Shown here one piece after another: positions 43,690-45,139 of a stretch of DNA of 64,000 bases. A model generated the notes under the pieces. The model ran no database searches and had not been told where the DNA came from. It saw only the letters and a list, made by a program, of their open reading frames with translations. Made by a program: the position numbers and the translations under genes. The stretch comes from Polynucleobacter rarus. Lineage in GTDB: Bacteria > Pseudomonadota > Gammaproteobacteria > Burkholderiales > Burkholderiaceae. Position 1 is the first letter of the stretch. Each line of letters starts with the position of its first letter. The stretch lies in NCBI RefSeq assembly GCF_003072505.1, contig NZ_NTGB01000001.1, forward strand, positions 2,731,622-2,795,621, given 5' to 3'.

Positions 43690-43718
43690 TTGAAAAAATA
43701 TTCTTTTAAAGATATAAT
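43690..43718 (+). promoter_or_regulatory. Sigma-70 promoter of metK
   Basis: TTGAAA (43690-43695) and a consensus TATAAT (43713-43718) are exactly 17 bases apart. The start would fall near 43725, twelve bases before the riboswitch stem. Confidence 0.8.
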
Positions 43719-43736
43719 AGGATAAATGTTTTAAAG

Positions 43737-43785
43737 TCGCCGAGTTAAAGACAACTTGCAGGGCGAATCAAAAATTCTGCTAAAG
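43737..43785 (+). ncRNA. SAM-II/SAM-V-type riboswitch in the metK leader
   Basis: The leader fits an H-type pseudoknot. Stem 1 is TCGCC (43737-43741) with GGCGA (43762-43766). Stem 2 is GCAG (43758-43761) with CTGC (43777-43780), followed by TAAAG. The conserved TTGCA and GCTAAA elements of the SAM-II aptamer are present in the right order, and the gene controlled makes SAM. SAM-V shares this core, so I do not separate the two. The expected effect is lower metK expression when SAM is high. A hairpin at 43799-43830 near the ribosome site may be the expression platform. Confidence 0.78.
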
Positions 43786-43798
43786 CGTCGCCGCATGG

Positions 43799-43833
43799 AT
43801 AAGTTTTCGGCACGTGTTGTCATAACTTATTTT
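43799..43833 (+). promoter_or_regulatory. Putative expression-platform hairpin of the metK riboswitch
   Basis: ATAAGTT (43799-43805) pairs with AACTTAT (43824-43830), followed by TTT and then the AGGA ribosome site (43834-43837). The 3' half can instead pair with the aptamer loop: AGTT/AACT and GACAAC/GTTGTC (43743-43755 with 43816-43827). The two folds exclude each other. Confidence 0.5.
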
Positions 43834-43846
43834 AGGAATCCATAGC

Positions 43847-45013
43847 ATGGCGAATGATTATCTTTTTACCTCTGAGTCCGTATCCGAAGGACATCCAGAC
43901 AAAGTCTCCGATCAAATTTCAGATTCAATCCTTGACGCAATTATTGCGCAAGACCCAACAGCAAGGGTCGCAGCAGAAACCCTTTGCAACACAGGCCTCG
44001 TTGTTTTGGCAGGTGAAATTACGACAACAGCCAATGTTGACTACATTAAAGTAGCTAGAGATACGCTGAAGTCAATTGGCTATGACAATACAGAATACGG
44101 TATTGATTACAAAGGTTGCGCCGTATTAGTTGCGTATGACAAACAAAGTCCTGACATCAAGCAAGGTGTTGACAGTGCTGAGGATGATCCATTAAACATG
44201 GGCGCTGGCGATCAAGGCTTAATGTTCGGTTATGCCGTTAATGAAACTCCAGAATTAATGCCCCTACCAATTCACTTATCGCATCGTTTGGTGGAGCGTC
44301 AGTCCCAGTTAAGAAGAGATGGTCGCTTGTCTTGGCTCCGTCCAGACGCAAAGTCACAAGTGACCTTGCGTTATGTTGATGGCATGCCGCATTCGATTGA
44401 TACAGTAGTGTTGTCAACACAGCATGCTCCAGAAATCGAGTTAGCTGCTCTCAGAGAAGCGGTAATTGAGGAAATCATTAAACCAGTATTGCCAAAAGAA
44501 TTAATCAAAGGCGAAATTAAATATTTGGTAAACCCTACTGGTCGATTTGTAATTGGCGGCCCACAAGGTGATTGCGGTCTAACTGGCCGTAAAATTATTG
44601 TGGATACCTATGGTGGTTCATGCCCTCATGGTGGTGGTGCATTCTCGGGTAAAGATCCTTCAAAAGTTGATCGTTCAGCAGCTTATGCAACCCGTTACGT
44701 GGCGAAAAATATAGTAGCAGCCGGTCTTGCTACGAAGTGTTTAGTGCAAGTTTCCTACGCTATCGGTGTAGCTAAACCTACATCTGTATGGGTGAGTACT
44801 TATGGAACTGGCGTGATCTCAGATGAGAAAATCGCTCAGTTAGTGAGTGAACACTTTGATTTGAGACCAAAAGGAATTGTGCAAATGTTGAATTTATTAC
44901 GCCCAATTTATCGTAATACAGCTGCTTATGGGCATTTCGGTCGGGAAGAGCCAGATTTCACATGGGAGAAAACCGATAAGGCAGCAGCATTAAAAGCAGC
45001 AGCAGGTTTATAA
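43847..45013 (+). CDS. metK: S-adenosylmethionine synthetase
   Basis: Makes SAM from methionine and ATP; 388 residues, normal length. Signatures are [14 protein letters not shown] (about 12-25), [12 protein letters not shown] (about 117-128) and the P-loop-like [16 protein letters not shown] (about 262-277). The ATG has AGGA nine bases upstream. It is preceded by a strong promoter and a SAM-II/SAM-V-type leader, and followed by the SAH riboswitch of ahcY, so the genes are controlled separately although adjacent. Confidence 0.98.
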
Positions 45014-45030
45014 TAGTAAAAATTCTTCAA

Positions 45031-45114
45031 GGAGCGTTGCGAGGATGTTTTCTTAATACGAGAAAACACCCCAGGCTTGAAGGGGCTCTTTTGGGCCTTA
45101 GCAACGGCGCTCAC
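45031..45114 (+). ncRNA. SAH riboswitch upstream of ahcY
   Basis: GGAGCGTTGCGA (45031-45042) and GCAACGGCGCTC (45101-45112) form the conserved basal stem. The inner GGATGTTTTC / GAAAACACC hairpin (about 45043-45069) and the CCAGGCTTGAAGGGG core (45071-45085) match the SAH aptamer consensus closely. SAH riboswitches are on-switches in front of ahcY, which removes SAH. The aptamer leads straight into a terminator hairpin, which indicates transcriptional control. Confidence 0.92.
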
Positions 45115-45139
45115 TAACCTAGTAATGCATGGTTGGTGG
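45112..45139 (+). terminator. Terminator hairpin after the SAH aptamer
   Basis: CACTAACC (45112-45119) pairs with GGTTGGTG (45131-45124 read backwards) around TAGTAATGCAT-type loop bases, and eight T follow at 45132-45139. Its first base is also the last base of the aptamer's basal stem, so SAH binding and termination can compete. It would also end read-through from metK. Confidence 0.8.

Follow-up and report, generated by a model that had tools for sequence, protein, structure and literature searches.

A divergent SAM-II-type element in the metK leader of Polynucleobacter rarus, a probable SAM-dependent translational OFF switch found patchily among betaproteobacterial relatives

According to the accessible text of Leyn 2014 (PMC4239095), beta-proteobacterial metK was left without a known methionine regulator after a search that failed. 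A pseudoknot in front of metK in Polynucleobacter rarus raises the question of whether an RNA element acts on this gene, to which class it would belong and by which route it would work. We analysed a window of 64,000 nucleotides (the whole stretch of DNA under study), in which an earlier note, made from the letters alone, had placed a riboswitch of SAM-II/SAM-V type at this site. The reading we favour, with good confidence, is that this element of the metK leader would belong to the SAM-II riboswitches as a divergent form and would work as a SAM-dependent translational OFF switch. The promoter, the aptamer and the gene are laid out as follows, in positions of the window:

43690–43718, forward strand: sigma-70-like promoter TTGAAA-17-TATAAT, 11 of 12 consensus positions
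43737–43789, forward strand: putative SAM-II-type aptamer, an H-type pseudoknot, from pair counts and the match of covariance model R2 (43734–43792)
43737–43741, forward strand: 5' strand of P1, TCGCC, paired with 43762–43766 in 100% of the cells of 21 sequences, with both-side changes in 2 of its 5 pairs
43744–43744, forward strand: G at the SAM-II U10 position, where U10 would contact the adenine-binding U (role from the SAM-V structure)
43750–43752, forward strand: P2b strand GAC, of the 3' pseudoknot helix, paired with GTC 43787–43789 in 92.1% of cells, 2 of 3 pairs changed on both sides
43756–43760, forward strand: TTGCA element, from the sequence
43758–43761, forward strand: pseudoknot strand GCAG, paired with CTGC 43777–43780 in 97.5% of cells, with A-U/G-C exchange in relatives
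43762–43766, forward strand: 3' strand of P1, GGCGA, from pair counts
43777–43780, forward strand: pseudoknot partner strand CTGC, from pair counts
43779–43784, forward strand: GCTAAA, invariant in 21 of 21 sequences; by our mapping, U43781 and A43782–43784 match the SAM-contacting stretch (contacts from the SAM-V structure, accessible part of PMC6061858)
43787–43789, forward strand: P2b strand GTC, common to P2b and a competing anti-helix, from pair counts and helix energies
43847–45013, forward strand: metK, S-adenosylmethionine synthetase, 388 aa, an open reading frame with three Pfam S-AdoMet_synt domains

Read from the sequence, both stems described in the earlier note do pair (TCGCC 43737–43741 with GGCGA 43762–43766, GCAG 43758–43761 with CTGC 43777–43780), and TTGCA and GCTAAA stand in their places. 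The third helix, P2b, had been missed; it is only 3 bp long in the window leader, and since its GTC strand lies at 43787–43789 the aptamer extends to 43789. As for the promoter, a consensus-like site is indeed present upstream, but P1 begins 18 bases past the −10 box and not 12 as had been stated, a spacing of 12 being obtained only from a start near 43725. The region holds 2 promoter-like sites against 1.2 expected in shuffles, so that the promoter scan alone is weak.

By BLASTN the leader block is kept in 35 of the 37 genomes of the window's genus, its own genome counted, which places the pseudoknot beyond chance; the leader found matches in 44 of 61 genomes, and in the other genomes of the genus the matched block is 81–96% identical. 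The structure was examined in 21 diverse aptamers, aligned with MAFFT and not fitted to the structure, from which a covariance model, R1, was also built. The 12 pairs of the pseudoknot are paired in 97.2% of cells, with both-side changes in 6 of the 12. Shuffles never reached the observed value (0 of 500) on four of five measures; for further pair types, the fifth measure, 29 of 500 reached it. When the partners were slid by 1–3 columns, 22–48% of cells were paired in the 21 sequences, a comparison that favours the proposed pairing over the slid versions because the structure was read off the same sequences. The paired changes support the predicted pseudoknot. In two genomes of the genus the element was not found: one (G033, complete) gave no BLAST match and a best R1 score of 14.1 bits, and the other (G028, 78% complete) gave no BLAST match and a best R1 score of 21.1 bits (E 0.004), and was counted as not found.

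The existing Rfam models do not call this structure. At the curated Rfam cut-offs the only match in the whole window is an SAH riboswitch before ahcY. The earlier note had named a search with the Rfam SAM-II and SAM-V models as its check, and these models lend the claim no support: in a permissive search SAM_alpha (RF00521, SAM-II) gave the leader 12.8 bits, E 1.2 over 211 bases, with a cut-off of 36, and SAM_V (RF01826) gave no match in the metK leader at E up to 10. The same held in 20 further metK loci, none of which reached the SAM_alpha cut-off and one of which matched at E up to 10, with 20.4 bits; thus Rfam calls the element in 0 of the 21 metK loci scanned. Of the aptamers in 20 loci of metX, metZ or metH, 7 score at or above the SAM_alpha cut-off, and 13 stay below it at 26.8–35.5 bits. 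From these 20 SAM_alpha-like aptamers, and from no metK leader, we built a second covariance model, R2, which finds the metK leader in the 64 kb window with 41.3 bits and E 3e-10, the next match having 11.6 bits. R2 also matches all 40 metK leaders given to it (out of 42; two terminator-type leaders, L091 and L100, were left out), the weakest, L040, with 15.5 bits and E 0.013. Since R2 bridges the two groups, we read the low Rfam score as a limit of the Rfam model. A chance resemblance, to which the Rfam E of 1.2 over 211 bases would lend itself, is scarcely conceivable beside the R2 value in 64 kb, the covariation and a leader block kept by 35 of the 37 genus genomes.

The bases of the pocket point the same way. 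The correspondence of leader positions to SAM-II numbers (43744 taken as U10) is a mapping of our own. With it, positions 13 and 18 are homopurine in 157 of 163 aptamers among the matches listed (98 G-G, 59 A-A, 6 others). A homopurine pair at 13/18 was inferred for SAM-II by Barrick and Breaker, in the part of their paper accessible to us, and the covariation seen here fits such a putative pair, the equation of the positions being our reading. Among the matches listed, moreover, U11 and GCUAAA are present in 164 of 164 aptamers and UUGC in 163. Strong conservation of sequence would by itself suit a leader whose structure is a binding site for a protein or an sRNA and not for SAM, yet it is the bases of the SAM-II pocket that are conserved, they recur before metZ, metX and metH, and a SAM_alpha-like model finds them, which makes such a binding site highly improbable.

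The choice between SAM-II and SAM-V, which the earlier note had left together, turns on the 3' end. A SAM-V riboswitch would have the same SAM pocket, no 3' helix and a Shine-Dalgarno sequence hidden directly beside the aptamer. Core and pocket are indeed the same, and SAM-V is translational (PMC6061858, accessible part), as the metK leaders also appear to be; SAM-V is further described there as a riboswitch of marine bacteria, with the Shine-Dalgarno hidden right at the aptamer. In the leader, however, the Shine-Dalgarno lies 44 nt past the aptamer end, the 3' helix, absent from SAM-V in the available text of Meyer 2009, is paired in 92.1% of cells, no SAM_V match appears even at E up to 10, and the training loci of the R2 model that finds the element are SAM_alpha-like. 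Huang and Lilley, as far as the accessible part of PMC6061858 goes, propose a short helix at the 3' helix site in SAM-V too. We give the SAM-V reading only a slim chance, and membership in that class was rejected on the missing SAM_V match and the presence of P2b. The comparison thus supports a predicted SAM-II variant, and it is the SAM-II half of the earlier proposal that holds, through the R2 match, the leaders of other genes that score at SAM_alpha level, P2b and the 13/18 covariation. By Rfam score alone the element would fall outside the family; it is filed as divergent SAM-II on account of the R2 matches, the SAM_alpha-scoring relatives and the 13/18 covariation. With SAM-II (RF00521) it shares P1, the pseudoknot stem, P2b, UUGC, GCUAAA, the homopurine covariation, the control of methionine/SAM genes and a promoter just upstream of P1. 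It differs in its score far under the Rfam cut-off, in G replacing U10, in the target metK and in a separate translational platform made of a blocking stem and a competing anti-helix; among the matches listed, many named metK leaders also carry a longer stretch, often capable of forming a hairpin, before GCUAAA.

In the sample of the order, R1 matched 161 of 200 genomes with an E of 0.01 or less; under the stricter limit of 1e-4 it matched 126 of 274 genomes in the class sample and 34 of 299 in the phylum sample, the samples overlapping. Duplicates removed, 172 matches, drawn from the better-scoring R1 matches in the order and from the earlier loci, gave 164 distinct aptamers in 142 loci, a set in which weak aptamers, for example those with long inserts, are under-represented because the better-scoring matches were taken. 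By the gene within 1 kb, among the matches listed, they divide into metZ 46, metK 42 (11 of them from the window's own genus), MATE-type transporter 33, metH 13, metX 11 and other 19. Gene names come from clustering with one representative each. In NCBIfam the metZ representative matches O-succinylhomoserine sulfhydrylase, that of metX homoserine acyltransferase MetX, that of metH methionine synthase, and a fragment the MATE model; metK and a MATE were checked in Pfam. In named genomes an exact pattern scan returned at least 119 stretches, and among the matches listed 77 of 80 loci, those of Burkholderia, Ralstonia, Bordetella, Cupriavidus and Thauera among them, have metK no more than 1 kb away; of the other three, two end too early to tell and one (Silvimonas, L274) has another gene. 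With one genome taken per family of the order, the element stands before metK in 13 of 49 evaluable families, and in the other 36 neither unfiltered R1 nor inspection by eye found it before metK; one family (f7) was left out of this count because its metK starts at a contig end. The element before metK is widespread but patchy. In one family (f47, genome G082), the metK leader L237 resembles by eye a sequence of SAH-riboswitch type (GAGGAGCGTTGCGA, CCAGGCTCGG, CAACG) and not SAM-II.

Aptamers also occur in tandem. Among the matches listed, 22 loci (L038, L058, L073, L092 and others) have two SAM-II aptamers with a T-run between them, defined only as four T in a row; a MATE-type gene lies within 1 kb in 16, and 6 of the 22 were labelled 'other' by the gene within 1 kb. 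In L038 the MATE gene is PF01554 and a 106-aa open reading frame without Pfam match lies in between. One genome of 5.1 Mb (G478) has ten R1 matches, those listed being mostly pairs about 100 nt apart. Tandem SAM-II riboswitches are already known, with 44 cases in the accessible part of PMC9481103.

The metK aptamers differ from the metX/metZ/metH ones at position 10: among the matches listed, 38 of 42 metK aptamers have G there, against 1 of 70 metX/metZ/metH aptamers, and T stands there in 46 of 46 metZ, 11 of 11 metX and 12 of 13 metH aptamers; the scan of named genomes says nothing on U10, since its pattern contains G10 by design. In the SAM-V structure U8, by our mapping the counterpart of U10, is hydrogen-bonded to U47, which binds the SAM adenine (PMC6061858, accessible part). 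Because the altered base would be the one that holds the adenine-binding U, the G10 form might be a SAM-II relative with a changed ligand preference, for example relaxed towards SAH, and both the distribution of G10 and the SAM-V contact would suit this. The U that matches the sulfonium-facing one, U11, and GCTAAA are nevertheless kept in all 164 aptamers listed, a change at U10 would in our judgement touch adenine binding and not the choice between SAM and SAH, and SAH has its own riboswitch at 45023–45119 in the same cluster; a changed preference is therefore unlikely, and we keep to a SAM-II variant that would respond to SAM.

Base 10 goes together with the type of output. Among the matches listed, a terminator-like hairpin is absent in 41 of 50 G10 aptamers and present in 98 of 114 others; with the metK rows excluded, 10 of 12 G10 aptamers are without terminator and 96 of 110 others have one. 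These calls come from a crude detector, and several of the 7 'terminators' of G10 metK aptamers, for instance in L067 and L148, turn out to be the blocking stem with U-rich sequence after it. Four metK aptamers have U10, two with a terminator (L091, L100) and two without (L115, L127). In the 22 tandem loci listed, G10 occurs in 1 first aptamer and 8 second aptamers, so that the U10 side comprises metX, metZ, metH and 21 of 22 tandem first aptamers, and the G10 side metK and 8 of 22 tandem second aptamers. We would put forward, tentatively and as a possibility to be taken seriously, a distinct betaproteobacterial G10 branch of SAM-II in which base 10 is matched to output, U10 to terminators and G10 to translational platforms; the single base would then tune affinity or off-rate to slower translational control, and metK would be the unseen SAM feedback point of the class. 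The element offers a natural test of the matching of one aptamer base to transcriptional or translational output.

How the metK aptamer might act on translation was sought in the sequence downstream, whose parts are the following:

43786–43792, forward strand: 5' strand of the predicted anti-helix, CGTcGCC, pairing with GGCACG 43809–43814; shuffle fraction 0.06 in the window leader
43793–43800, forward strand: 5' arm of the predicted hairpin enclosing the Shine-Dalgarno and the start region, in duplex with ATCCATAGC; shuffle fraction of the Shine-Dalgarno stem 0.055 in the window leader
43809–43814, forward strand: 3' strand of the anti-helix, GGCACG, from helix energies and shuffles
43816–43821, forward strand: GTTGTC, a genus-specific second anti-aptamer pairing, complementary to the aptamer loop GACAAC 43750–43755
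43834–43837, forward strand: Shine-Dalgarno AGGA, in the internal loop of the blocking hairpin, 9 nt before the ATG, from sequence and folds
43838–43846, forward strand: 3' arm of the blocking hairpin, directly before the metK ATG, from duplex and folds

Two helices were compared across metK leaders, 103 out of 110 being used, 70 of these from named records (77 named metK loci are listed, 4 of them without a start within 140 nt). For the blocking stem, a leader's own arms gave −14.5 kcal/mol against −10.1 for swapped arms in 37 metK rows, the remaining 5 of the 42 (four that have U10, one whose gap is 244 nt long) being omitted. Leaders that are related, or alike in base composition, can push the outcome of a swap test upwards, and we therefore rely on shuffles, run alongside a control region: against dinucleotide shuffles the blocking stem falls below 0.05 in 30 of 103 leaders, and the control region in 7 of 103. 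In L240, and in the Caballeronia record L283 whose sequence is the same there, the stem is a 14-bp match of GCTTCAGACTCCAA with TTGGAGTCTGAAGC. The anti-helix, GCGU-C-GCC with GGC-N-ACGC, has its GUC in common with P2b; own sides gave −14.8 and swapped sides −12.9 kcal/mol in the 103 metK leaders, 44 of 103 fall below 0.05 against dinucleotide shuffles, and the two sides vary together across lineages, as in GCGUCGCGCC/GGUGCUACGC. The majority of leaders fail these shuffle tests individually, and the window leader is borderline in both (0.055 and 0.06). All 35 leaders examined in the window's genus could also pair GACAAC, or GGCAAC, with GUUGUC, and this pairing appears in the folds of the window transcript, both cut 44 nt past GCTAAA and at full length. 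Another candidate, an antisequestrator of the pseudoknot/P1 3' strand with GUCGCC, was rejected (p 0.058 against swaps, 3 of 37 below 0.05 against shuffles).

Equilibrium folding of the 103 leaders showed no release of the Shine-Dalgarno, whose mean opening was 0.26 with and 0.25 without the GCGUC tail; in 61 of 103 leaders the tail gave the larger opening (Wilcoxon 0.039; neither this nor the Fisher values take the relatedness of the genomes into account, and they should not be read as true probabilities), and a gain above 0.3 was seen in 0 leaders. In transcripts cut before the Shine-Dalgarno, the tail was paired downstream with a probability above 0.5 in 44 of 103 leaders against 24 of 103 with shuffled downstream sequence, a modest excess. 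In the full-length fold of the window leader with its aptamer, the anti-aptamer pairing is kept and the Shine-Dalgarno is mostly open (paired probability 0.27), which is what an ON state would require.

From these parts a mechanism can be sketched in which SAM likely represses metK translation. With SAM present, the three helices of the aptamer (P1, the pseudoknot stem and, at the 3' side, the short P2b) would close and take up the GUC strand; the sequence past GUC, so freed, would pair with the Shine-Dalgarno/start region and block metK translation. With SAM absent, GUC and its neighbours would pair with the downstream GGC-N-ACG(C) in competition with P2b, helped in the window's genus by GACAAC pairing with GUUGUC, and the anti-helix would keep the blocking arm in a loop and leave metK open. 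Because the blocking hairpin is the more stable one, control would need to be kinetic, during transcription, and the nearly equal equilibrium opening with and without the competing strand, which speaks against an easy version of this scheme, would likewise require the switch to act at that stage. Comparison is the source for the pseudoknot, for its kinship with SAM-II, for both downstream helices (taken as a class) and for the association with metK; that SAM is the ligand, that it would turn metK off and that it would do so during transcription is our inference.

Part of this picture has precedents. SAM-II is placed in Alpha-, Beta- and Gammaproteobacteria in the available text of Meyer 2009, terminators with SAM-II in alpha- and beta-Proteobacteria are mentioned in that of Barrick and Breaker 2007, and Bordetella bronchiseptica is among the abbreviations of the motif figure in that of Corbino 2005, while the accessible text of Leyn 2014 (PMC4239095) lists SAM_alpha only in Rhizobiales and Rhodobacterales. 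The same text describes the metXZ RNA element, like ours a betaproteobacterial pseudoknot, before metX/metZ and with a terminator, the terminator/antiterminator acting on metXW/metZ; compared by description, the SAM-II aptamers that we find before metX/metZ are very probably this element. The Sinorhizobium metA riboswitch (PMC9373788, accessible part) is likewise a case of translational SAM-II control, and differs in being alphaproteobacterial and in front of metA. A 2022 article on a fluoride riboswitch tool (PMC8814607) suspects regulatory elements in the 5'UTRs of B. thailandensis metK, metX and metZ, 'which we confirmed (unpublished data)' in a table note, as far as its accessible part goes. 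In the open-access literature we found no SAM-II riboswitch described before betaproteobacterial metK, and one may exist in subscription journals or preprints. As far as these searches reach, the new side is metK, with a variant aptamer and a translational platform, and the element would fill the metK gap of Leyn 2014 for part of the beta-proteobacteria (13 of 49 families sampled). The metXZ element and the Rfam family RF02424 would both be tied to SAM-II.

RF02424 (Bp2_287, a Burkholderia 'sRNA') covers the same DNA stretch before metX/metZ on the opposite strand of the SAM-II aptamer; the accessible part of PMC3521395 places this RNA upstream of methionine genes. It lies opposite a SAM_alpha match in 7 of 20 metX/metZ/metH loci, in L039, in L037 and in genome G205, all far below its cut-off of 70. 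In genome G153 it scores 107.5 bits, and the other strand has a SAM-II-like aptamer, a terminator and an O-succinylhomoserine sulfhydrylase gene. Over 6 genomes it matched in 3, above cut-off in 1; three weak matches in G127 and G205 have no SAM_alpha overlap, and in a control set of 14 genomes 3 had weak matches, 0 above cut-off. The loci concerned by the opposite-strand matches are L191, L192, L039, L037, L162, L166, L093, L154, L081, L128 and L167. The family may have been modelled on the wrong strand.

Beside metK, finally, the SAH riboswitch at 45023–45119 (48.5 bits) lies between metK and ahcY-metF and is followed, by eye, by a hairpin-like stretch and a T-run. A putative SAM sensor and an SAH sensor, of opposite expected sign, thus stand about 1.2 kb apart in one methyl-cycle cluster, and several relatives have the same arrangement.
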